This document shows, one piece after another, positions 45,768 through 62,363 of a DNA stretch of 64,000 nt (position 1 is its first letter; each line of letters begins with the position of its first letter). The position numbers and the translations under genes are program-made. The DNA comes from Microcoleus vaginatus WJT46-NPBG5. GTDB taxonomy: Bacteria > Cyanobacteriota > Cyanobacteriia > Cyanobacteriales > Oscillatoriaceae. The stretch covers positions 62,001 to 126,000 of the forward strand of contig JAHHHM010000003.1 of assembly GCA_019359355.1 (NCBI GenBank), given 5' to 3'. The notes below the pieces were generated by a model. The model was not told the DNA's origin and did no database searches. It saw nothing but the letters and a program-made list of their open reading frames with translations.

Positions 45768-47924
45768 GTGATTGGCAAACTATTAGATGGACGTTACCGG
45801 ATTACTGAAGTTTTAGGATCAGGTGCCTTTGGACAAACTTATCTGGCAGAAGACACTCGCCGGCCTGGAAATCCTCAATGTGTGGTCAAGCAACTGTGCC
45901 CAACCAATAACGGCTCAAAATCCCTGCAAGCCGCTCACCGGCTGTTTAAACGAGAGGCAGAAACCCTAGAAAAACTGGGAAGACACAACAAAATCCCGCA
46001 ACTTTTAGCTTATTTTGCGGAAAATCAGCGATTTTATCTCGTTAAAGAGTTTACGCCCGGACATCCCCTCACCCAAGAAATTGTAGCCGGTGTCCCTCTC
46101 TCTGAAGAACAAGTCGCCAGGATCTTGGTAGAGGTGCTAGAAATTTTAGTCTTTGTCCACGGCAATCGCGTCATTCACCGCGACATTAAACCGGCAAACT
46201 TAATTCGGCGGGCTTCTGACAACCGATTAGTGTTAATTGACTTTGGATCGGTTAAAGAAATTACCGCTCAAATCGCCCAGGGACAAGGCCCGTGGACAAT
46301 AGCTGCCGGCACGCCTGCCTATATGCCGGTGGAACAATTTCAAGGCAACCCTCAATATAACAGCGATATCTACGCCCTCGGCATGATCGCCGTGCAAGCA
46401 CTCACCGGCTTACCTGCCATCGACTTACCCAAACTTCAAGACCCCAACACCGGCAAAATTACCTGGCGGCATCGCGCGATCGTCAGCTCACAACTGGCAG
46501 ACATTATCGACAAAATGGTACACCACCACTATGGTCAGCGCTACTCGTCAGCCGCCGCCGTCCTTGCCCCTTTAAACAAGCTGCCGGCCCTCTCACAACT
46601 GCCACCGCCGCCAGAAACAATTGTTACTCAGAACGACCCACCGCTGAGGAAATTGCCTATAAACCGCTCGATTTTGGCAGCAATCGTGGCATTTGTGGTC
46701 TTGTCGGGACTGTTTCTGCTGTCTCTGCGTCCCGACACCACCAAGTCCCAAGGATTTTATACCCGTGGGTTAAAACGGGCGGAAAGCGGCGATCAGCAAG
46801 GGGCAATTGAGGAATACACCCGCGCCATTCAACTGAATCGCAAGAACGTTGAGGCTTATTACAAACGGGGAAATGCTTACTACGATTTGGGGGAATTAGA
46901 GAAAGCGATTGATGATTACAACGAAGCCATTGAGCGAAATCCCAACTACGCCGATGCTTACTACAACCGGGGACTCGCTCAATATGATCGCGGCAACCAG
47001 CGCGGTGCCATTGAGGATTTCAACGCGGTGATTCGCCTTCACCCCCAAGATAGCGGGGCTTACTATAAAAGGGGAGTCGCTTACTTTGACCTCAAAGACT
47101 ACAGCACCGCGATTCAGGATTACACCGAGGCAATTCGGCTTAACCCCGATGATGCGAAAGCTTACCAGGCAAGGGGAATCGCTCGTTTGGCTACGGATAA
47201 TAAGCAGCCGGCGTTAGAAGATCACACGAAAGCGATTTTGCTTGCCCCTGATGATGCGGATGCTTACTACAGCCGGGGCAGAGCACGCTTTTTTCTGGCA
47301 GATTATCAGGGGGCGGTAGAGGATTATACCAAGGCAATTGAGCGAAATCCTAAGTACGTTCAAGCTTATAGCAATCGGTGCGGTGCTTATTTAAATTTGG
47401 GCGCACATAGCAAAGCGGTTGCAGATTGTACGGAGGCAATCAAGCTGAATCCTAATGATGAGGTGGCTTATGATAATCGTTGTATTGCTCAGCACAATGC
47501 CGGTCAGTATAAACAAGCAATTGAGGACTGTAGCCAAGCAATTCGGATTAATGCCGGCAATCCTAAAGCCTATAGTAATCGCGGGTTGGCGAAGGCGGCT
47601 GCCGGCGATAGTGCCGGTGCAATTGAAGACTACACCCAGGCAATTCGCCTCAATCCCAGTGATTCCGTCGCCTACAGTAATCGCGCGGTTGCCCAGTCTA
47701 AGCGGGGAAATTATGCCGGTGCAATTGCTGATTACGCCCAAGCACTGAGGCTGAGTCCCACGTTTGCCGGCGCTTATTTGGGGCGAGGACTTGCCCGTGA
47801 TCTGATGGGAGATCGAGCCGGTGCGATTGAAGACGTACAAAAAGCCGCTACGCTTTATTTAGAGCAAGGCAGGCCGAGTGGGTACAAGGAAGCTCAGCAG
47901 CAGCTCAACAAGCTGCGGCAATAG
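45768..47924 (+). CDS. Ser/Thr protein kinase with TM helix and TPR repeats
   Basis: 718 residues from GTG at 45768. Kinase domain about 1-275: Gly loop GSGAFGQTYLA, VVKQL Lys, HRDIKPANLI with Asp139, DFGSVKE, and GTPAYMPVEQ; all motifs intact. A membrane helix at about 303-325 (ILAAIVAFVVLSGLFLLSL) is followed by about ten TPR units (residues about 335-700) of the AYYNRGLAQYDRGNQRGAIEDF type, presumably outside the membrane. It matches cyanobacterial Pkn-type TPR kinases. First of three TPR genes in a row; the next encodes its pseudokinase paralogue. Substrate unknown. Confidence 0.93.
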   Translation: MIGKLLDGRYRITEVLGSGAFGQTYLAEDTRRPGNPQCVVKQLCPTNNGSKSLQAAHRLFKREAETLEKLGRHNKIPQLLAYFAENQRFYLVKEFTPGHPLTQEIVAGVPLSEEQVARILVEVLEILVFVHGNRVIHRDIKPANLIRRASDNRLVLIDFGSVKEITAQIAQGQGPWTIAAGTPAYMPVEQFQGNPQYNSDIYALGMIAVQALTGLPAIDLPKLQDPNTGKITWRHRAIVSSQLADIIDKMVHHHYGQRYSSAAAVLAPLNKLPALSQLPPPPETIVTQNDPPLRKLPINRSILAAIVAFVVLSGLFLLSLRPDTTKSQGFYTRGLKRAESGDQQGAIEEYTRAIQLNRKNVEAYYKRGNAYYDLGELEKAIDDYNEAIERNPNYADAYYNRGLAQYDRGNQRGAIEDFNAVIRLHPQDSGAYYKRGVAYFDLKDYSTAIQDYTEAIRLNPDDAKAYQARGIARLATDNKQPALEDHTKAILLAPDDADAYYSRGRARFFLADYQGAVEDYTKAIERNPKYVQAYSNRCGAYLNLGAHSKAVADCTEAIKLNPNDEVAYDNRCIAQHNAGQYKQAIEDCSQAIRINAGNPKAYSNRGLAKAAAGDSAGAIEDYTQAIRLNPSDSVAYSNRAVAQSKRGNYAGAIADYAQALRLSPTFAGAYLGRGLARDLMGDRAGAIEDVQKAATLYLEQGRPSGYKEAQQQLNKLRQ

Positions 47925-48109
47925 CGAGGTAGGAGGGGGAAGCATCAACGGATAAATATTTACCTCAACGCAGAGATTTTGTGCGCGGATGTTTTGCCCC
48001 TACGAGATATTTTTCTCCCGCTCTTCCTCTCTCCCTCTTCTATCCCTTTGCCGCCGTTAGCCCATACAATTTTTTGCCAGAATCTACGAAAAATGGCTAG
48101 GGTGTTGTG

Positions 48110-50305
48110 ATGATTGGCCAACTTTTAGATCGACGTTACCGGCTTATTAAACTCTTAGGATCAAATACATTTCGACACACCTATCTGGCTGCGGATACAC
48201 ACCGGCCCGGTTATCCTCAATGTGTGGTTAAGCAATTGCGCCCACCCAATAGCCACCCCAGAACGTTTAATATCATTCAACTTTTATTTAAAAAAAAGGC
48301 AGAAATTCTAGAAAAGCTAGGAAAGCATGATCAAATTCCTCAACTCTTAGCTTTTTTTGAAGAAAACAAAGACTTTTATATTGTTGAAGAATTTATTGCC
48401 GGCCAATCTTTATCCGAGGAAATTGTCGTCGGTGTGCCTTTGTCTGAAGACCAAGTGTTTCGCCTACTGCAAGAAGTTTTAGGAATTTTAGTTTTTGTCC
48501 ATCATCAAGGCGTAATTCACCGAGATATTCATCCAAAAAATATCATTCGACGCCAATTAGATGGCCGGTTGGTTTTAATTAACTTTGAAGCAATTCAAGA
48601 AAGCACCTCTAAAGCTTCTAATTCCCAAATTGGACAGTTGGCAGCTCCACTGGGTGATTCGGCTTACAAATCGATTGAACAACTCCAAGGCAATCCCTTG
48701 TATAACAGCGATATTTATGCTTTGGGGATTATTAGCATTCAAGCATTAACCGGCTTGCCGGCAGAAGATTTAACTAAACTGCAAAATTCTGATTCCTCTC
48801 ATGCCGGTGAATTGCTCTGGCGACACCGAACACAAGTCAGTCAAGAACTAGCAGATATTCTCGATAAGATGATTGTATCTGACTTTAGAGATCGCTATCA
48901 AACTGCACTGGATGTTCTCACTGATTTAAACAACATTGGAAACAACTCTGGAGATAACCAACCACTGCAAATGCTGGTAACACTTGAGCAAAACGACAGC
49001 AAACGCCAGCCTCGTTTATGGGAAACCCGCTTTAGGCAAAAACTTTTGCTGATCGGGGCAGGTTTAGCTGCCTTGATTGCGATTGCCGGTTTAGGCTTAG
49101 GATTTCATCGGCAAGCACAGCAAAAGGCAAGCAATTTAAAAATTAGTGAGTTAGAAAACGCCACCGATAGCGATCACCTAGGGGCAATTCAGAGCTATAA
49201 CCAAGCAATCCAACTCAATCCTAATAACGCAGAAGTTTACTACAAACGCGGAAATTCTAACTATGATTTGGGCAACTTGGAGGATGCAAAGGCAGATTAC
49301 ACCCAGGCAATTCGCCTTGATTCCAAGCACGCCAAAGCCTACCAGAATCGAGGGCTTATTTATTCTGACTTAACAGACTATCGGGCAGCAATTGATGATT
49401 ATAATCAGGCAATTCTTTTGCAGCCTAATGATGCAGCAGCTTACGAAAAACGAGGTCAGGCTTATTTTAATTTAAACGACTATAAAGCAGCAATTGAGGA
49501 CTACACTCAGGTAATTCGATTTAATAATCAGGATGCGGTTGCTTATATCAATCGTGGATTAGCCCGTTCTGCTGCCGGCGATAGACAGGGAGCATTAGCA
49601 GATTATACTCAAGCAATTCGCATCGATCCCAACAGCGGCGATGCTTTCTATAGCAGAGGCAGAGTCCGTTTTTATTTAGCTGATTATCAGGGCGCGATGG
49701 AAGATTATACGGACGCTATTCGAGTTAATCCTAAATTTACAGATGCCTACATTAATCGATGCAGTGCCCTATTAAATTTGGGGCAATATCAGAAAGCGGT
49801 TGCAGATTGCTCGCAAGCGCTTAAACTCAGTCCGAATGATGCGATTGCTTATGGAAATCGCTGTATTGCCTACTTTAATATACGCGATTATCAGAAAGCA
49901 ATTGAGGACTGCACTCAGGCAATCGGGCTAGATTCTAATAATTCTAAAGCCTACAGTAACCGAGGTCTAGCTCGCGCTGCCGCCAAGGATAAACCAGGGG
50001 CAATTGATGATTTTACGAAGGCAATTCGTACTGATCCCAGTGATGCCGTTGCTTACAGCAATCGCGCAGAGGTTCACTCAGATTTAGGAAATTATAGTAG
50101 TGCAATTGAAGATTACACCCAAGCAATTCGACTTAAAAAAGATCATAATGGAGCTTATTATGGCAGAGGTTTAATTCGCGCTCGCCTGGGTGATAAACCG
50201 GGTGCGATTGAGGATTTTCAAAAATCTGCGAAATTGTGTATTGATCAAGGCAATACGGGGTGTTATAACGATGCCCAGTATCAAATCAAAAAGTTGCAGT
50301 CCTAA
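48110..50305 (+). CDS. TPR-repeat pseudokinase, tandem paralogue of the kinase upstream
   Basis: 731 residues from ATG at 48110 (GTG at 48107 possible). Same layout as the previous protein: kinase fold about 1-280, membrane helix near 312-332 (LLLIGAGLAALIAIAGLGLGF) and about ten TPRs. Key residues differ: the Gly loop is GSNTFRHTYLA, the HRDxKxxN motif reads HRDIHPKN, DFG has become NFE (near residue 158), and the APE segment is SIE. The VVKQL Lys remains. It is probably catalytically dead and may bind or regulate the active paralogue 185 bases upstream. Arose by tandem duplication. Confidence 0.9.
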   Translation: MIGQLLDRRYRLIKLLGSNTFRHTYLAADTHRPGYPQCVVKQLRPPNSHPRTFNIIQLLFKKKAEILEKLGKHDQIPQLLAFFEENKDFYIVEEFIAGQSLSEEIVVGVPLSEDQVFRLLQEVLGILVFVHHQGVIHRDIHPKNIIRRQLDGRLVLINFEAIQESTSKASNSQIGQLAAPLGDSAYKSIEQLQGNPLYNSDIYALGIISIQALTGLPAEDLTKLQNSDSSHAGELLWRHRTQVSQELADILDKMIVSDFRDRYQTALDVLTDLNNIGNNSGDNQPLQMLVTLEQNDSKRQPRLWETRFRQKLLLIGAGLAALIAIAGLGLGFHRQAQQKASNLKISELENATDSDHLGAIQSYNQAIQLNPNNAEVYYKRGNSNYDLGNLEDAKADYTQAIRLDSKHAKAYQNRGLIYSDLTDYRAAIDDYNQAILLQPNDAAAYEKRGQAYFNLNDYKAAIEDYTQVIRFNNQDAVAYINRGLARSAAGDRQGALADYTQAIRIDPNSGDAFYSRGRVRFYLADYQGAMEDYTDAIRVNPKFTDAYINRCSALLNLGQYQKAVADCSQALKLSPNDAIAYGNRCIAYFNIRDYQKAIEDCTQAIGLDSNNSKAYSNRGLARAAAKDKPGAIDDFTKAIRTDPSDAVAYSNRAEVHSDLGNYSSAIEDYTQAIRLKKDHNGAYYGRGLIRARLGDKPGAIEDFQKSAKLCIDQGNTGCYNDAQYQIKKLQS

Positions 50306-50425
50306 TCAGACGCGTCAGATATTGTAGCCCTAGGCTATAGTGATGTTGATGGGTTAAAAATACTTCTCTATTGCAAAAAGTCTAAAATAATATCAGTTGC
50401 CGGCTTAGCAAAGTAGAAATAAACA

Positions 50426-51688
50426 ATGGATCGGGAATTCTATAATCGAGGATTAGAAAAAGCGCGTCAAGGAGATCACCTAGGCGCAATTCAGGAATTT
50501 AACCGTGCCTTGCGAATTAATCCTGACTTTGCGGAAGCTTACTACAAGCGAGGGTTGGCACGCTTTGACTGTGGAGACGCGAGGGAAGCAATTGCGGATT
50601 ATACGCAAGCTTTGTCTCTACAGCCGGCAAGTCTTGACGTTTACTTCAGCCGGGGAATCGCTCATTTGGCGCTGGCAGAAGCACCGGCAGCCATTGAAGA
50701 TGCATTGCAAGCTTTACGCATTGATGCCAATTATGCGCCGGCTTATCGGCTTCAAGGTAGCGCTTACCGCCGGCAGGGAGAGATCCAAGCAGCGATAACA
50801 AGTTTTAAACGAGCGGCAGAATTATATCTTGAGCAAAAGGATGCTGTAAATTGCCGTAAATGTCTGGATACTGTCAAACAACTTCAGCCGGCACCTTTAG
50901 TTAAGGAAAAGACTCAAACTCGGCTTCCCCTTGGGGAACATAAGGAATTTTTTAATCAAATATTACAACGCTTTGAGAAAGGAGATAAACGGGGCGTTCT
51001 TGAAGATTTAAATTGGGCGTTAAAAGTCGATCCTCAAGATGCTCAAGCTTACCGTTGTCGAGGAATTGTTCGTTACAAGCAAGAAGATTATCGCGGCGCA
51101 ATTTCTGATTTAAACCAGGCTTTGCGATTAAATTCCCAGGATGCTGTCGCCTATCATTACCGGGGAATGGTGCGGTGTCAGATGGGAGATCATCACGGTG
51201 CAATTGCTGATCTAAACCAAGCCTTGCAAATTCTCCCGGAAGCTGGGAAGGTTTATGTTGCTAGAGGCAATGCTTATCGGGCAGTTGCTAATTATCAGGG
51301 AGCAATTAAAGATTATACGCAAGCACTGCAAATTAATCCTGATGAGGCTGAAGCTTATTATAATCGCGGGATTGCTCAATCTTGTTTAGAAGAAATGAAG
51401 GCAGCGATTGCAGATTATCAAAATGCTGCTAAATTGTTTTGCGATAAGGAAGACTGGGTTAATTATCAAAAAGCGCTGGATAGCCTGAAATTAATTCAAG
51501 CTTCTGTGCCGAAACAAACGGCTGCCGGTGCGGTAAACCCCTTAAGACAAAAACTTTTGCGGATGGTTGGGGGTTATTGGGAAATTGCTGAGCGATTAAT
51601 TGAGCAGGAGAGGGAAAATTTTCCCGATATGCCTGAAGAGTGGTATTGGGAAAAGGTGATTTATGATCTGGAGCGGGATCGGGAGTGA
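50426..51688 (+). CDS. TPR protein
   Basis: 420 residues. About ten TPR units in two blocks (residues about 1-140 and 170-345), e.g. AYYKRGLARFDCGDAREAI and AYYNRGIAQSCLEEMKAAI, with a charged linker between and a C-terminal region (about 355-420) ending in EERPDMPEEWYWEKV-like acidic-aromatic sequence (PDMPEEWYWEKVIYDLERD). No signal peptide or kinase domain. Likely a protein-interaction scaffold. Repeats resemble those of the two kinases upstream, so it may be a third product of the same expansion. Confidence 0.88.
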   Translation: MDREFYNRGLEKARQGDHLGAIQEFNRALRINPDFAEAYYKRGLARFDCGDAREAIADYTQALSLQPASLDVYFSRGIAHLALAEAPAAIEDALQALRIDANYAPAYRLQGSAYRRQGEIQAAITSFKRAAELYLEQKDAVNCRKCLDTVKQLQPAPLVKEKTQTRLPLGEHKEFFNQILQRFEKGDKRGVLEDLNWALKVDPQDAQAYRCRGIVRYKQEDYRGAISDLNQALRLNSQDAVAYHYRGMVRCQMGDHHGAIADLNQALQILPEAGKVYVARGNAYRAVANYQGAIKDYTQALQINPDEAEAYYNRGIAQSCLEEMKAAIADYQNAAKLFCDKEDWVNYQKALDSLKLIQASVPKQTAAGAVNPLRQKLLRMVGGYWEIAERLIEQERENFPDMPEEWYWEKVIYDLERDRE

Positions 51689-54745: not shown

Positions 54746-55342
54746 GTGACTGAACCACTTCCCAAGCAGCCAGACATTGAACCCCTCTCACGTATCGAAA
54801 TTTTAGGTTACATGGGGGTAACAGCCGTTCTATTACTGGTGCTCGCTAAGCTTTGGCAGCATTTTCGAGGCATTTCCCTGCTTCCTCTCAGTTGGGCCGG
54901 CATGGCGTTACCTTGGGGATTGGCGGTTGGTGTGGGGATTTCTGTTACGAGTTCCATCATTTATCGCCTTTGGCCGGCATATCGGCAAAGTGCAAATTAT
55001 TACTTAGCTTTAATCCTCAAACCTTTGCAGTGGCCAGATTTGATTTGGCTGGGACTGTTGCCGGCTTTAAGTGAAGAACTTTTATTTCGCGGCGTGATGT
55101 TATCGGATTTGGGATTAAATACCGTTGGGCTAGTGGTTTCTAGCGTATTTTTCGGCATTTTGCATTTCAGTGGCCCTCAGCATTGGCCTTATGTTGTTTG
55201 GGCAACCGTTGTCGGGCTGATACTCGGATATAGCGCTTTAGCCACCGGCAATTTGTTGGTGCCTATTGTGGCTCATGTCTTTACAAATTTAGCATCCGGT
55301 TGCCTTTGGAAATTAGGCCGGTTCAGTGGGGACAGCCGCTGA
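54746..55342 (+). CDS. CPBP-family intramembrane metalloprotease
   Basis: 198 residues from GTG at 54746. About six membrane helices. The CPBP/CaaX motif 1 is LSEELLFRGVML (Glu-Glu and Arg); motif 2 is FGILHFSG (His); motif 3 is PIVAHVFTNLASG (His, Asn). These residues coordinate zinc and act in proteolysis of membrane or prenylated proteins. The gene follows DUF3326 by about 87 bases. Target unknown. Confidence 0.9.
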   Translation: MTEPLPKQPDIEPLSRIEILGYMGVTAVLLLVLAKLWQHFRGISLLPLSWAGMALPWGLAVGVGISVTSSIIYRLWPAYRQSANYYLALILKPLQWPDLIWLGLLPALSEELLFRGVMLSDLGLNTVGLVVSSVFFGILHFSGPQHWPYVVWATVVGLILGYSALATGNLLVPIVAHVFTNLASGCLWKLGRFSGDSR

Positions 55343-56569
55343 TAAGTTCTTAACGTTCAACACTGTGCGAAGTCGGACTGCGTTTGTTTAGCCCCGATGT
55401 CCAATCGTCAGGGCTTACTCTTCTGTAAATTTGCCTTAACAAACCTACGGATACTAATAATTCTACACACCTTATAAAAGTAAAAACTGTAACGTACAAA
55501 ACACTTAATTCATATTTAAAGTTTCTGTAAAGAAATTCGGATAATACATAAAGTTTTTGTAAATCTTCAAAAAAACAATAGTCTTGCTGCTAGCAACCGT
55601 GCTATCTATGTAACAACTTAAAGAACTTTGTTCAGAGAAAGGATTTCATTTTTTTCAGTTAGTTTGCTTGAGGTTTACAGAAGACTAAAACTTAAGCAAT
55701 TTTTAAGGAGAATCAAATAACTAGCTTTTCATGATTCACTCAACAGAAGTAGCAATCACTCTTTCTAAAGCTAGGATTCATTGGTTTCAGGCACGATAAA
55801 ATTTGAGACATCAAGGCAAAAAGTTCCTAGCTATTAAGCAGCGCTATTTGAACGTTCAGCAATAGCAGTTTCACCAGCAGCAGAGGGTTTCAAGACTTTT
55901 TGGGATGAGCCTTTCGCTGTAGATTTTGATTGCCAAGTCTACTGGTAATCGTCGCATTGCTGTAGCGCTGAATAAAATATGTTGGCATTCCCCGCCGGCA
56001 AAGTTTATCTCCCATCAGGGCACTACATTGCGATGGCGCAGATCTGAAACAATTACCATATTTAATTAAGTCTAGTCAAGATCAATTTAGGATCACAGGC
56101 AAATTGATCTTGCGCTAGCTAGGTAGATTCCAGCAAAATGCGATAGAAGTTGTCTAGCTAAATAAGTTTTTTAAGCTAGATAAATTCTTCACAGAAGCTT
56201 TTAATGAAACCTTACCCAATAACCATGTAATACCCAAAGAATCTCATCAGAATATCAAAGCCCACAGCAAGCCTATACAATTTAGAGAAAGCATTGACCA
56301 TGAATACTTCCTTCCATCTTTTGTTTACTGATAAAGTGCGTTTGCTACTTAAGCAACAATATCCAAAAAGCCGTTCGCCTAAAACAGATGCAACATTGGC
56401 ATCAGGGCTATTTCACAATTCATCATTTAAAACTTTTCAATTTAGAATCAAAAAAGCTGGGATAAGTTAAATCAAAACTTGCTAAGTAGCTCAAATCAGG
56501 AAAAAATTAGAAATTTGCTGACACGCGGCAACAAGCTCCCGTGGAGATAAATTGAGAAACATTGAAATT
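55343..56569. other. 1.2 kb intergenic region, no supported gene
   Basis: Largest gap of the window. It is AT-rich; a possible short frame starts at about 56300 (MNTSFHLLFTDKV..., about 56 codons to TAA near 56470) but lacks a convincing ribosome site, and a 22-codon frame starts near 55731. No terminator, repeat or RNA was identified. The end probably carries the promoter for the SMR-UbiA-HAD-GT39 operon. Confidence 0.45.
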
Positions 56570-56938
56570 ATGAAGGGATTTGCAGTGAATTCAACTTGGG
56601 TTGCATGGGCTTTGGTGTTAGCTGCCGGCGTTAACACTTGTATTGCTAATTTATTGCTCAAGCGCTCAAGAATTGAGGCGATTGATTCTAGTTTCTTCTC
56701 GTTGATTCTATCCCCTTGGATGATTAGTGCTTTGGTATTTTTCGGGGTCAACGTGGTGTTATTTACCAAAGCCTTAGACAAGTTACCTGTTTCAGCTGCA
56801 TATCCTGTATTAGCCGGCTTGGGATTTAGTTTACTTGCAATTACCAGCAACTGGTTTTTTGGAGAACGCTTAGGCTTAAACCAATGGATAGGCATCGGAC
56901 TGATTTTAAGTGGACTTATTATTATGTCACGCTCATGA
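56570..56938 (+). CDS. SMR-type small multidrug-resistance-like transporter/flippase
   Basis: 122 residues from ATG at 56570 (TTG at 56552 with GGAG six bases upstream also possible). Four membrane helices: WALVLAAGVNTCIANLLLK, ISALVFFGVNVVLFTKAL, YPVLAGLGFSLLAITSNWFF and WIGIGLILSGLIIM. Compared with EmrE, the membrane Glu needed for drug/proton exchange is replaced (LAAGVNT in place of LAEVIGT), as in ArnE/ArnF-type lipid flippases. Its stop overlaps the next gene (ATGA). Likely flips a polyprenyl-phosphate sugar (inference from context). Confidence 0.82.
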   Translation: MKGFAVNSTWVAWALVLAAGVNTCIANLLLKRSRIEAIDSSFFSLILSPWMISALVFFGVNVVLFTKALDKLPVSAAYPVLAGLGFSLLAITSNWFFGERLGLNQWIGIGLILSGLIIMSRS

Positions 56939-57912
56939 TCAAACACCTTTTCAAACTACTGCGCCCACATCAATGGACGAAGAACCTCTTCTGTCTAGCC
57001 GGCTTATTTTTTAGCGGTAAATTCTTAGAACCGGCAGCTATTGCTGAAGCTTTCTTGGCAGTTGCCATGTTTTCTTTCATGGCTTCAGTCGTGTACATTT
57101 TTAACGATATTCAGGATGTAGAACGTGATCGTGAACATCCAAAAAAGCGATATCGCCCGATTGCCAGTGGCAAAATCAGTGTAAAGGCAGCTACTGCGAT
57201 TGCCCTGTTTCTAATTGTTGTTGCCTTGCTAATTGCTTATAGCTTGGGAATGCCGGTGTTGGTGTGTCTTGTACTTTATGCCGGTATTAACATTTCCTAT
57301 TCGCTAAAACTAAAGCATTTGGCTTTATTTGATGTCAATTGCATAGCTTTAGGTTTTGTATTGCGACTTTTAGCCGGCGTTTATGCAATTGAGGTGATTC
57401 CCACAGGATGGATTACCCTTTGCACATTTTTCTTGGCGCTATTTCTAGGGTTTGCCAAAAGACGTTCTGAACTTTTAGGACTTCTCAGTAATAAAATGAC
57501 TCAGGATTTTTTGGATCGTCAGGAATCTGAAAGTATTGAGATAGCCAAACCTGTGTCTGAACTGTTTTACTTACAGCTATTCTATCAGCGAGGTCAAGCC
57601 AATCCTCAACGTCCGGTTTTGTCACAGTACACCCTACCCTTTCTTGATTCTTTGCTTAACAGCACTGCAACGATGACAGTCATGTGCTACGCCCTGTTTA
57701 CTGCAATTTCTGGCAAAAATCCTTCCCTGGTAATTACAGTGCCCATCGTGCATTATGCTGTCATGCACTACAAACATCTTGTCATGGTACGAGAAGGCGG
57801 CGAAGAACCGGATCGAATTTTGATTAAAGATGCCCGAATCAAATTAAGCATTTTAATTTGGTTGATTTCCTACTTCCTAATCATCTACAGTAACGTTAAT
57901 TTATTTGCATAG
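56935..57912 (+). CDS. UbiA-type 5-phosphoribosyl-1-polyprenyl-phosphate synthase
   Basis: 325 residues from ATG at 56935. About nine membrane helices of the UbiA fold. The first Asp-rich site is NDIQDVERDREHPKKRYRP, very close (from memory) to the mycobacterial decaprenyl-phosphate phosphoribosyltransferase motif NDVxDxExDRxHPxKRxRPIA. The second site lies around FAKRRSELLGLL, and the C-terminal EEPDRILIKDARI matches the family tail. It would join phosphoribose from PRPP to polyprenyl phosphate. ATGA overlap with the SMR gene, and a 9-base gap to the HAD gene, show an operon. Confidence 0.85.
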   Translation: MIKHLFKLLRPHQWTKNLFCLAGLFFSGKFLEPAAIAEAFLAVAMFSFMASVVYIFNDIQDVERDREHPKKRYRPIASGKISVKAATAIALFLIVVALLIAYSLGMPVLVCLVLYAGINISYSLKLKHLALFDVNCIALGFVLRLLAGVYAIEVIPTGWITLCTFFLALFLGFAKRRSELLGLLSNKMTQDFLDRQESESIEIAKPVSELFYLQLFYQRGQANPQRPVLSQYTLPFLDSLLNSTATMTVMCYALFTAISGKNPSLVITVPIVHYAVMHYKHLVMVREGGEEPDRILIKDARIKLSILIWLISYFLIIYSNVNLFA

Positions 57913-57921
57913 TAGATTGAA

Positions 57922-58569
57922 ATGGAAGTCGCAGACATTTCTTTGCCAACACAAAACCGCCCGATTGTCGCCGTGTTTGATTTTGACGGCACGCTGACCA
58001 AAAAAGATTCTTTCCTGCCATTTCTGTGCGGGGCAGTCGGTCAATTTCGATATTTGCTAGGGTTGTTAGTTTTGTTACCTTGGTTGATGGGATTAGCTCT
58101 AAAAATTATTCCCAATGGCAGAGTTAAAGAAGCTTTCTTGACTCACTTTCTAGGCGGCTGGTCTGAAGAAAAATTGCAGCGAGTGGCAGAACGATTTGCT
58201 GTTCAAAAGATTCCAAAAATGCTGCGTCCTGAAGCCCTACGCCGGCTGGAATGGCATCAAGCACAAGGACATAAGCTAGTTGTACTTAGTGCTTCCCCAG
58301 AAGCTTATTTAGTGCCTTGGGCGCAAACAATTAGTGTTGATATGGTGATTGCCTCTCGCCTGGAAGTTCAAACCGGCCTGTTAACGGGACGCCTTTTAGG
58401 CAAAAATTGCTATGGCCAAGAAAAAGTTGAGCGACTGAAAGCAGGACTTGGAAATTTAAGCGATTACTGTCTCTACGCTTACGGTGATAGTGCCGGAGAT
58501 CTGCAACTTTTAGCAATCGCAGACTATCCCTACTACCGGAATTTTGGAGATACAAAAATAGCGCGATAA
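57922..58569 (+). CDS. HAD-IB phosphatase (phosphoribosyl-polyprenyl-phosphate phosphatase candidate)
   Basis: 215 residues. HAD motif I FDFDGTLTKKDS, motif II SASPE, motif III Lys in GQEKVERL, motif IV GDSAGDLQLL. It resembles phosphoserine-phosphatase/CicA-type proteins with a small helical cap. By context (directly after the UbiA gene, like the mycobacterial pair Rv3806c-Rv3807c) it probably removes the 5-phosphate from polyprenyl phosphoribose. Alternatively it is a general HAD phosphatase. One hydrophobic stretch near residue 40-55 (LLVLLPWLMGLALKII) may be membrane-associated. Confidence 0.85.
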   Translation: MEVADISLPTQNRPIVAVFDFDGTLTKKDSFLPFLCGAVGQFRYLLGLLVLLPWLMGLALKIIPNGRVKEAFLTHFLGGWSEEKLQRVAERFAVQKIPKMLRPEALRRLEWHQAQGHKLVVLSASPEAYLVPWAQTISVDMVIASRLEVQTGLLTGRLLGKNCYGQEKVERLKAGLGNLSDYCLYAYGDSAGDLQLLAIADYPYYRNFGDTKIAR

Positions 58570-58706
58570 AATTTCCTGCCGGCGTTCAAAGCCTCGCAAT
58601 TTTTAACGATTGCCGTCTGAAATTTTCATCACATTTCTAAACTCTTAACTGTTTCATAACCTTTTGAGAAAAACTCAAACCAACCAACCCTCTTACGGTG
58701 AATGCC

Positions 58707-59978
58707 ATGCACTTTTCTAATAAAAGCCAGATAGCTAACCAAGAAATCTCTCAAAAATTTACACGTTTAAGCCCTGAGCTTTGGATCATACTTATTGCAG
58801 GATTAGTGCGTATACTATGGGCAATCGCCGTACCCGTAGTTCCCGTTTCAGATAGCTACGCTTATGATACCTTTGCCCAAAACCTTGCAACTGGACAGGG
58901 ATATGGATGGAATAGCACATCCCTCACTGCTTATTGGCCGGTGGGTACCTCATTTATTTACTCTGTATTTTACCGAATTTTTGGTCACACTTACGCCCCC
59001 ATCATTGTTTTTAATGGGCTACTAGCAGCCGTAATAATTGCAATTTCAATGCGCTTAGCAAAAATTTGGTTTAATCGCCGTATCGCCTTAATAACAGGTT
59101 TATTAATCGCTATATGGCCAAGCCAAGTTCAGTTTACAACGGTGCTGAATAGCGAATTAATTTTTACAGCTTTAGTATTAATTGCACTCATCATTTGGCT
59201 AAATGAGCCTACCAACTTATGGGTAAGAAGTGTATTAGTTGGAGTCGTGCTAGCCGCAGCTTGTTATGTGCGACCCACTGCCTTATTAATTCCTATCTTA
59301 CTTTTATTCTTTCGATGGGTAAAAACACGACAGCTATTTAAAAGCTTGAAGGCTATTCTGATTGTATTTGTCTTAATGGCTGTGCTGATTGCACCTTGGT
59401 CAATTCGTAATACGCGAGTCTTTGGACAATTTGTTACAATTTCGACAAATGGAGGCGCTAATTTTTGGATGGGAAATAATCCCAAATCTACAGGGGGCTA
59501 TATGCCGTTACCTCCTGAAACAAAAGAGATGAATGAAGCGCAGCGAGATAAATATTTAAAATCAATAGCAACCACTCATGTCAAAGAACAACCTCTGCTA
59601 TTTCTTCGTCGCACCATAACTCGGCTAATTGATACCCATAGCCGTGAAAGTATCGGAATTGGCTGGAATGAAAAAGGCTTAACTGCTCGTTATGGAAGCA
59701 GCATTTTATTGCCTCTAAAGATTATCAATCAAATCTATTGGTTGCTAGTTTTGGGGCTAGCCTTAACAGGAATCGTACTTTTATATCAACAGCATGGATG
59801 GATAGTGGTGGCTCATCCCGTCGTCGTTATCTGGGGGTATTTTGCAGCCATTCATGCCGTCATAGTTGCTCAGGATCGTTACCATTTTCCGAGTATCCCA
59901 ATGATTGGAATCTTGGCTGCATTTACACTGGCATATTGGTTTGATAGGAAACAAAAGTTGAAAAATAGCGAAAAATGA
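58707..59978 (+). CDS. GT39-type (PMT/ArnT-like) glycosyltransferase
   Basis: 423 residues from ATG at 58707 (GTG at 58698 possible). Many membrane helices (about ten to twelve) with an acidic first periplasmic loop (PVSDSYAYDTFAQNLA), the place of the catalytic Asp in GT-C enzymes, and TGQGYGWNSTSLTAYWPVG. These enzymes transfer a sugar from a polyprenyl phosphate to proteins, lipids or glycans outside the membrane. It is 137 bases after the HAD gene, in the same direction. In this operon, it would use a polyprenyl-phosphate pentose; inference. Confidence 0.85.
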   Translation: MHFSNKSQIANQEISQKFTRLSPELWIILIAGLVRILWAIAVPVVPVSDSYAYDTFAQNLATGQGYGWNSTSLTAYWPVGTSFIYSVFYRIFGHTYAPIIVFNGLLAAVIIAISMRLAKIWFNRRIALITGLLIAIWPSQVQFTTVLNSELIFTALVLIALIIWLNEPTNLWVRSVLVGVVLAAACYVRPTALLIPILLLFFRWVKTRQLFKSLKAILIVFVLMAVLIAPWSIRNTRVFGQFVTISTNGGANFWMGNNPKSTGGYMPLPPETKEMNEAQRDKYLKSIATTHVKEQPLLFLRRTITRLIDTHSRESIGIGWNEKGLTARYGSSILLPLKIINQIYWLLVLGLALTGIVLLYQQHGWIVVAHPVVVIWGYFAAIHAVIVAQDRYHFPSIPMIGILAAFTLAYWFDRKQKLKNSEK

Positions 59979-59994
59979 AAATTAAGTAGCGTTA

Positions 59995-60075
59995 CAGCGA
60001 ACAGTAAGGCTCCTAGCGATCACAGCTCCTCCCTTGGCTCTGCTTTAGAAAACTGGCTGTGACGCCTGTTCGCTG
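59995..60075. repeat. Nested inverted repeat between convergent GT39 and purN genes
   Basis: CAGCGAACAG (59995-60004) pairs with CTGTTCGCTG (60066-60075). Inside, GCGATCACAGC (near 60016) pairs with GCTGTGACGC (60056-60065) with one unpaired base. The fold is a long interrupted hairpin between convergent genes, fitting a bidirectional terminator or a palindromic mobile repeat. T run absent. Confidence 0.68.
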
Positions 60076-60101
60076 CAATTTTCTTAAACTAATGTTGAGC
60101 T

Positions 60102-60806
60102 TTAAAAATTCACTTCTCCTGCTCGTTGCGCGGCAGCGAGTGCAATAGCTTGGGGCAAAATTTTGTGTTCTTGAACTTGAATCCGCGCGTGCAAGGTTTC
60201 AGATGTATCATTTGGCAAAATCGGCACCACAGCTTGCATAATAATTGGCCCACTGTCTACCTCTAACCGCACAAAATGAACGGTACATCCTGCTATTTTC
60301 ACGCCGGCTTCAATTGCCTGTTCTACTCCTCGGATACCCGGAAAACTAGGCAATAAACTGGGGTGAATATTAATCATTCGGTCTGGAAAAGCATCCACTA
60401 AAACTTGAGTGACGACTCGCATCCAGCCGGCCATAATCACCCAATCCACATCATATTGCTGCAACGTCTCAACAATTTTGCTATCTAAATCTTCCCGTTG
60501 TTTATAATCCCGATGATTGAGGAGAATTGCGGGAATGCCAAACTTTTCGGCTCTTGCAATCACTTTAGCGCCGGGATTATTGTAAATCAAAACTTGAATT
60601 TTAGCGTTCAGTTTGCCATCAGCAATTGCTTGAGCAACAACTTCAAAATTTGTGCCACTCCCTGATGCCATCACTCCCAATTTTAACGGAGAGCCGGTGG
60701 GAGGATATTCTGCCATAAGATTAGGCGGAATAGCAGGAGAAATAAAGCTAGGAGTTGATTGTGCCTGATCGGTAGTCATGGGGAACGTGGCTGAAATTTC
60801 ATGCAA
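60102..60806 (-). CDS. purN: Phosphoribosylglycinamide formyltransferase
   Basis: 234 residues. The first 40 residues are a non-conserved extension; a later start at M10 or M22 is possible. Core: LGVMASGSGTNFEVV, IYNNPGAKV, DWVIMAGWMRV and NIHPSLLPSFPG (His and Asn for catalysis), CTVHFV and DSGPII. PurN moves a formyl group from 10-formyl-THF to GAR in purine synthesis. Stands alone; divergent from the gene at 60890. Confidence 0.97.
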   Translation of the reverse strand: MHEISATFPMTTDQAQSTPSFISPAIPPNLMAEYPPTGSPLKLGVMASGSGTNFEVVAQAIADGKLNAKIQVLIYNNPGAKVIARAEKFGIPAILLNHRDYKQREDLDSKIVETLQQYDVDWVIMAGWMRVVTQVLVDAFPDRMINIHPSLLPSFPGIRGVEQAIEAGVKIAGCTVHFVRLEVDSGPIIMQAVVPILPNDTSETLHARIQVQEHKILPQAIALAAAQRAGEVNF

Positions 60807-61850: not shown

Positions 61851-62363
61851 TTAAACTCCCTCATTTTGTACTTCTATGACACCGCGAAACATATTCATGC
61901 CACAAGTAAAGGCGTAATTTCCGGGTTGTTTCGGTGTAAATTCCACAGAAGTTACCCGATCAAGGGCTAAATCTTGAGCGATGTGGAAATCAGGTAACAC
62001 GACTTTTTCCAAACAACTACTGCGATCACGGCGCATAAAATTGAGCCGGACAAGTTTGCCGGCACTGACAATCACGCGAGCCGGTTCATAACCACCATCT
62101 ACAATAATTGTTAATTCCTGAACTCCTTGATTAGATTCAGCTTGCCGGCTTTTACTTTTACTGAAAACAAACCACCATAACTCCAAACCAATTAATCCTA
62201 AACCCCCCAACGTTACACCGGCTTTTGCGGCTAAAGGTTGCTCGATTTGTTGAAATTGAGCTGTTTGTTTGGGGTGCATTTCAGCAGCTTTAACTCCAGA
62301 TGCGACCGACAGTAAAAATCCAATGCCGGCAACACTACCCCAACTTATTTTTTGATTGAACAT
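61851..62363 (-). CDS. Membrane-anchored cupredoxin-domain protein
   Basis: 170 residues. Signal/anchor helix at the N-terminus (WGSVAGIGFLLSVASGVKA) and a second hydrophobic segment (VTLGGLGLIGLELWWFVF), then a cupredoxin domain (about 85-168): YEPARVIVSAGKLVRLNFMRRD and a Cu-ligand-like FTCGMNMFRGVIEV with Cys and Met residues. Starts just 18 bases after the end of the P-type ATPase gene (same strand), so both form a copper-handling operon. It could pass Cu(I) to or from the ATPase; inference. Confidence 0.88.
   Translation of the reverse strand: MFNQKISWGSVAGIGFLLSVASGVKAAEMHPKQTAQFQQIEQPLAAKAGVTLGGLGLIGLELWWFVFSKSKSRQAESNQGVQELTIIVDGGYEPARVIVSAGKLVRLNFMRRDRSSCLEKVVLPDFHIAQDLALDRVTSVEFTPKQPGNYAFTCGMNMFRGVIEVQNEGV

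Follow-up and report, generated by a model that had tools for sequence, protein, structure and literature searches.

Does a cyanobacterial gene cluster encode a route by which a lipid-linked pentose reaches the cell envelope and, if so, which sugar would be added? The question is raised by four genes within a 64,000-nucleotide (nt) stretch of Microcoleus vaginatus WJT46-NPBG5 (the window; positions 62001–126000 of contig JAHHHM010000003.1, within a 6.46-Mb cyanobacterial genome, G000, 99.6% complete). All four are intact plus-strand open reading frames (ORFs) in the order SMR, UbiA, HAD and PMT_2/GT-C, each with a Pfam match to its family, as a first-pass annotation made from the letters alone had proposed (Table 1; L and G numbers are our handles for stretches and genomes). 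SMR and UbiA overlap by four bases (ATGA), HAD follows UbiA after 9 nt and the GT-C gene begins 128 nt further on. We consider it probable, judging from sequence, that the set encodes a three-component pentofuranose system lacking an epimerase, its substrate and product being predictions. The UbiA protein would transfer ribose-5-phosphate from phosphoribosyl pyrophosphate (PRPP) to polyprenyl phosphate at the cytoplasmic face, a step well supported by homology, and the HAD protein would remove the 5′-phosphate to leave polyprenyl-P-ribofuranose, as gene context supports; the SMR protein may then aid flipping of this lipid across the membrane and the GT-C protein may move the pentose onto an envelope glycan or glycoprotein.

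Table 1 Features of the locus (window coordinates)
Feature	Position	Strand	Basis
SMR-family (ArnE/EamA-like) protein with four transmembrane (TM) segments, probable lipid-linked pentose flippase subunit	56570–56938	+	Pfam Multi_Drug_Res, 9.5e-12
UbiA-family protein, very probably a polyprenyl-phosphate phosphoribosyltransferase (DPPRS/PPPRS)	56935–57912	+	Pfam UbiA, 4.5e-24
HAD-IB phosphatase, probably 5′-phosphate removal (PRP role)	57922–58569	+	Pfam HAD, 4.1e-38
PMT_2/GT39-like GT-C membrane glycosyltransferase, probable pentose transferase	58698–59978	+	Pfam PMT_2, 2.1e-9
4.8-kb stretch present in the window, missing from this site in two congeners	55337–60117		Comparison of flanking DNA
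Left flanking gene, site marker	54746–55342	+	Orthologue at the site in 6/6 family genomes inspected
Right flanking gene, presumably purN	60102–60806	-	Orthologue at the site in 6/6 family genomes inspected

A predicted polyprenyl-phosphate phosphoribosyltransferase

Sequence and a structural model agree that the UbiA-family protein is very probably a polyprenyl-phosphate phosphoribosyltransferase. The DPPRS-type motif NDxxDxxxDRxHPxKRxRP, read correctly in the first pass, occupies residues 57–75 (NDIQDVERDREHPKKRYRP), and two NCBIfam DPPRS models are narrowly passed (NF008977, 240.4 bits against a cut-off of 234; NF008978, 211.4 against 207). The best PDB sequence matches are the mycobacterial-type structures 8j8j (E 1.2e-31) and 8j8k; an AlphaFold2 model built from 31 sequences (pLDDT 89, pTM 0.85) returns 8j8j_A as its top Foldseek match (E 1.3e-10, TM 0.75/0.83). 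Aligning the window protein with those from 30 of the 40 genome-contig UbiA loci gives 31 rows, in every one of which N57, D58, D61 and D65 are invariant. These catalytic-type residues are spaced as N247, D248, D251 and D255 in Citrobacter ORF15, which Kelly et al. mutated, and R176/E179 (loop IV) as its R366/E369 (ORF15 positions as given in the text of PMC11127046). A loop insertion of ~35 residues near positions 185–220 is shared with L037, L039, L043 and L050 and is lacking in L044, L047, L048 and L049.

In a 71-row tree (L073, L008–L010, L072, L076, L070 and L056 left out) the window protein groups with those of Oscillatoria, Planktothrix, Arthrospira and Lyngbya as a clade of 13 rows (support 98/95); a 15-row clade (100/100) takes in Spirulina and a Verrucomicrobiales metagenome-assembled genome as well. 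Because branches to the five UbiA paralogues of the genome are very long, MenA lies inside an open fork and the bootstrap is not fully settled, we draw on the tree for this close clade but not to decide the protein's family.

Such proteins are not confined to the window. A relative at 1e-15 turns up at 50 places in 49 of 386 genomes sampled from the phylum (35 of 143 genera). Four places belong to the close type, namely that of the window and three of Planktothrix type. The motif, as ND..D...D[RKL].H, is retained in 44 of 46 other proteins of the phylum. Surveying ~6 kb to each side of the remaining 46 places, where the contig allows, finds a DprE1-like gene at 14, a set of UbiA, PGP-like HAD and SMR at 10 and neither at 22. 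The first-pass annotation had thought such a modification unexpected in cyanobacteria, which these counts do not bear out; it overstated the surprise, but the core of what it found is sound.

Comparison with described pentofuranose systems

Kelly et al. (2024; PMC11127046) describe three-component pentofuranose systems in Citrobacter youngae O1 and O2, whose pathway they show experimentally. According to their text its parts are a PPPRS with a HAD domain, a MATE flippase, GT136 and an optional epimerase; O1 makes do with ribofuranose and no epimerase, and in O2 a lone SDR suffices for that role. Like these systems, the window set has a (here predicted) PPPRS of the UbiA family with the same catalytic residues, a HAD protein, a flippase candidate and a GT-C protein. 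It differs in that HAD is separate rather than fused to UbiA, and in that the flippase and transferase candidates are SMR and PMT_2-like rather than MATE and GT136. Its host is a cyanobacterium, a group absent from the main text of that paper, whose supplement lists further candidate systems. On this comparison, the window set is probably a variant of the three-component system that does without DprE.

The set resembles the mycobacterial DPPRS–Rv3807c–DprE1/DprE2–Rv3789 pathway, as outlined in the same text, in its DPPRS homologue (8j8j) and in having a small membrane protein proposed to act as flippase. Mycobacteria use a non-HAD phosphatase, and their DprE1/DprE2 turn ribose into arabinose, whereas the window genome has a HAD protein and, at the limits given below, neither DprE. 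The comparison of the HAD phosphatase with mycobacteria made in the first pass thus has to be corrected: Rv3807c is unrelated to HAD phosphatases (PMC11127046), the neighbour of the Tsukamurella DPPRS is annotated PAP2, and it is Citrobacter from which a HAD partner is known. Pilin arabinofuranosylation in Pseudomonas aeruginosa PA7, likened here by its description in PMC11127046 only, also has a PPPRS homologue feeding extracytoplasmic transfer, in this case to pilin; it differs in making arabinofuranose and in a phosphatase that is not of the HAD-PRP kind.

The HAD phosphatase probably belongs to the pathway

The HAD protein scores 157.7 bits with TIGR01490 (HAD-IB), against a cut-off of 98.3. 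DFDGT, SAS, K and GDSxxD are seen in its alignment, and we take these to play the roles of the HAD motifs. Homologues are present at 8 of the 40 genome-contig UbiA loci, and within the stretch at 5 of the 46 phylum places, every one of which has a DprE1-like gene. The gene row at L051 runs PMT_2, DprE1-like, DprE2-like, HAD and UbiA, then an LPG-synthase-TM flippase-like gene (DprE1-like: best model DprE1, 442 bits, below the cut-off of 500; DprE2-like: 189 bits, below 250, top model the general SDR NF005489). That of the cyanobacterium L118 runs UbiA, DprE1-like, DprE2-like, GT87 and a HAD fused to an LPG-synthase-TM domain, where the DprE names derive from resemblance to the proteins of L051 and from Pfam domains. 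Identity to the window HAD is 48% for the L051 HAD and 53% for the fused HAD domain in L118.

Across the 386 genomes, the HAD protein has a match at 1e-5 in 14, eight of which have UbiA at 1e-15. At E ≤ 1e-20 eight genomes match and seven of these have UbiA (hypergeometric 2.6e-6, or 1.8e-5 without the window genome), values uncorrected for kinship, with four of the eight genomes from one family, and obtained at a limit picked after viewing the list. Since HAD homologues elsewhere lie beside UbiA and DprE1/DprE2-like genes, the window HAD is probably part of the lipid-pentose pathway, in which it would act on the lipid. HAD-IB proteins fused to the flippase-like LPG-synthase-TM domain occur at L118:5645–7240 and L140:6857–8398, on stretches that also carry UbiA, DprE1-like and DprE2-like genes.

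Candidate flippase and glycosyltransferase

The SMR protein has four TM-like segments, and its best NCBIfam match is ArnE (41.8 bits, below the cut-off of 92). EmrE carries a Glu in its first helix; the first hydrophobic segment here has no acidic residue, and the first-pass remark on the missing glutamate stands. In 12 of the 14 close relatives among the genome-contig loci (L037–L050), UbiA has an SMR homologue as its neighbour; none was found in L043 and L049. Family and neighbourhood together suggest that the protein may help to flip the lipid-linked pentose.

The GT-C protein has seven TM-like hydrophobic segments in a simple hydropathy scan; a single-sequence AlphaFold2 model was unusable (pTM 0.28). 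Its homologues are rare, with matches at 1e-10 in 6 of the 386 genomes, the window genome included. Its placement in the PMT_2/GT-C superfamily holds; the narrower label of ArnT-like does not, there being no specific sequence similarity to ArnT. By family and position it may transfer the pentose to an envelope glycan or glycoprotein.

A different reading would have UbiA, SMR and HAD make and export a lipid-linked pentose, with GT-C an unrelated neighbour that uses another donor and the true transferase encoded elsewhere. This we regard as unlikely, though it has evidence to draw on: the 128-nt gap opens with a weak promoter-like pattern (58545–58572, 9/12 positions), no homologue lies beside other UbiA loci, and for the nearest one (L156, ~30% identity) no UbiA match turns up within the 13.5 kb examined. 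Yet the gene shares the 4.8-kb stretch and the strand of the other three, and other PMT_2 or GT87 proteins are found near such UbiA genes (L049, L051 and L118). Little weight is placed on the totals of promoter-like patterns (5 against 11.4 in shuffles, fewer) or terminator-like patterns (8 against 4.4, more).

Several observations count against a four-gene pentofuranose system. Only two of the three DPPRS cut-offs are passed, both narrowly, and the third is missed (NF008976, 142 bits against 474). The SMR and GT-C assignments draw on family and neighbourhood. The GT-C protein has no PDB match at E ≤ 1 and no homologue at any of the 40 genome-contig or 46 phylum UbiA loci, and the gap with its promoter-like pattern leaves co-transcription of GT-C uncertain. 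The HAD is rare among close relatives, which weakens the proposal further: of the 14, L048 alone has a homologue within the stretch, and the three Planktothrix-type genomes, the relatives searched whole, have no match at 1e-5, so the UbiA proteins of this clade are not strictly tied to a HAD partner. HAD and UbiA are far apart in G286, and G278, which has no UbiA match, carries an orphan HAD (L154:4202–4840) 58% identical to that of the window, with one internal stop.

Which pentose would be added

On the proposal of a three-component system, the identity of the sugar turns on whether the genome encodes an epimerase. The first pass saw no DprE in the window, and the whole genome has none either: searching it for PF04030, the C-terminal domain of DprE1 (0.001), and with the DprE1-like (1e-5) and DprE2-like (1e-20) proteins of L118 gave no match, and the last two queries matched G116 and G286 strongly (they come from G118). 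Nor does the genome have a match at 1e-10 to the GMC oxidase found beside UbiA in relatives, or at 1e-20 to the SDR that there adjoins SMR–UbiA (the second SDR of that cluster, L040:1916–2983, was not searched). As no epimerase known for the route was found in the genome, unepimerized ribofuranose is the most likely sugar; we infer that, as in Citrobacter O1, ribofuranose itself would be what is added.

Were the sugar epimerized to arabinofuranose, xylofuranose or another pentose by an unlinked enzyme, the lipid-linked route would be the same. The lone SDR of Citrobacter O2 (PMC11127046) makes such an enzyme conceivable, as do the loose SDR candidates of this genome (21 and 28 at first look, from the DprE2-like and adjoining-SDR searches) and the unsearched second SDR. 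We nonetheless hold this to be distinctly unlikely, because no DprE1, DprE2-like, GMC or SMR-adjoining SDR homologue was found at the limits above and because, in the cases set out in the text of PMC11127046, the epimerase gene lies with the system.

The genome has five other UbiA paralogues, heme O synthase (CtaB), 4-hydroxybenzoate polyprenyltransferase, homogentisate phytyltransferase, ChlG and MenA, each above its own cut-off. A role in aromatic prenyl transfer (quinone, chlorophyll or other), the work of enzymes in the same Pfam superfamily, is highly improbable for the window protein, as these five roles are already filled, none of those models reaches its cut-off for the window protein among the best 25 of 27 models (ChlG, 34.2 bits against 313; homogentisate, 33.5 against 226; 4-hydroxybenzoate, 31.4 against 275) and the top fold match is 8j8j. 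By family scores it thus does not cluster with quinone or chlorophyll enzymes; such clustering was what the first-pass annotation had named beforehand as contrary to its own proposal.

A chromosomal site of varying content

The predicted pentofuranose genes occupy a site that is empty in two congeners (L098 and L099), where the flanking genes are adjacent and the DNA is collinear and 90–93% identical up to ~55336 and again from 60118. The site is also empty in G386 and G387. Orthologues of the left flanking gene are 94 and 96% identical in G388 and G389, 73–74% in G391 and G390, and 67–71% in G386 and G387. The UbiA gene itself is without a match in both other genomes of the genus and present in three of seven other genomes of the family. 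At the same site, the Oscillatoria-type genomes G390 and G391 have genes for a multi-TM protein, a small one, a GMC oxidoreductase, two SDRs, SMR and UbiA, and downstream for another large multi-TM protein. New here are an intergenic site that is empty in two congeners and an alternative SMR–UbiA cassette in Oscillatoria-type relatives. The content of the site thus differs between related genomes, much as at accessory surface-antigen loci.

No signs of mobile elements were found at the locus, its repeats being only short and chance-like. GC content is 0.39–0.44 in the operon and 0.40–0.53 in its surroundings. A tblastn search of the 1.2-kb gap upstream of SMR with neighbours from seven relatives found no match to GMC or SDR gene remnants. 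The large multi-TM proteins flanking the Oscillatoria cluster (L101:5804–7627 and L044:7021–9606) are related over part of their length (~31%); neither has a Pfam or NCBIfam match, and both are candidate GT-C enzymes. Elsewhere in the window, at 45768–51688, lie three neighbouring plus-strand ORFs (718, 732 and 420 amino acids) whose orthologues match one another at ~31–54% identity.

A GMC/SDR version in relatives

Among the 14 close loci, nine carry the GMC gene (L037, L038, L040, L041, L043, L044, L047, L048 and L049) and 12 an SDR adjoining SMR–UbiA. Where GMC is missing, L042 and L046 end at a contig end and the genome of L045 has GMC just past the stretch; at L039 and L050 neither GMC nor SDR lies within 6 kb upstream. 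Planktothrix, Arthrospira and Spirulina have similar SMR–UbiA/GMC/SDR sets in other genomic surroundings, and related SDRs also lie next to UbiA at L057, L064 and L070, three loci from Acidobacteria. In both cluster SDRs TGxxGxxG and YxxxK are present, which the text of PMC11127046 names as motifs of the O2 epimerase from Citrobacter.

At 1e-5 none of the three Planktothrix-type genomes has a DprE1-like match, and the weak ones seen in G390 and G391 (28% over the FAD domain, E 7e-9 to 4e-7) resemble other FAD oxidases. The DprE2-like search, which among these relatives covered G255, G390 and G391, found no match at 1e-20. The GMC oxidase and SDRs could be an alternative route to epimerization. 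A larger proposal, tentative and somewhat unlikely as a whole, makes the site an exchange locus for surface pentoses, at which the window version would add ribofuranose while in relatives a GMC oxidase (a family other than that of DprE1) and two extended SDRs (PF01370, not PF00106 as in DprE2) would epimerize polyprenyl-P-ribose. The two close loci without GMC and SDR genes weaken it.

Related sets in cyanobacteria and beyond

The second cyanobacterial set, of UbiA, PGP-phosphatase-like HAD and SMR (L122, L128, L129, L131–L133, L135, L137, L139 and L143), has by family the same three functions as the window set and differs in HAD subfamily (L128 checked), gene order and UbiA tree branch. A phage search returned one unannotated record and a plasmid search 102 records, of which four regions were examined. 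One of the plasmids is haloarchaeal (L107:1691–8609) and encodes an epimerase, a UbiA annotated as DPPRS, a protein with a PHP domain and an LPG-synthase-TM protein, close to genes for a GT39 and a DolP-mannose mannosyltransferase. We found no published account of lipid-linked pentofuranose glycosylation in cyanobacteria in a literature search outside which subscription papers and supplements lay; a UbiA paper on aromatic prenyltransferases (PMC9235831) is unrelated and, in the text available, names cyanobacteria only for the ebo cluster.

Implications

If the predicted functions hold, lipid-linked pentofuranose glycosylation, known from mycobacteria and enterobacteria, would extend to cyanobacteria. 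The GMC/SDR version in relatives hints that epimerized pentofuranoses may also be made by a second chemical route. With different versions, or none, at one site, the locus may give rise to strain-level variation of the cell surface, whose role, for example against phages or grazers, is open to test.

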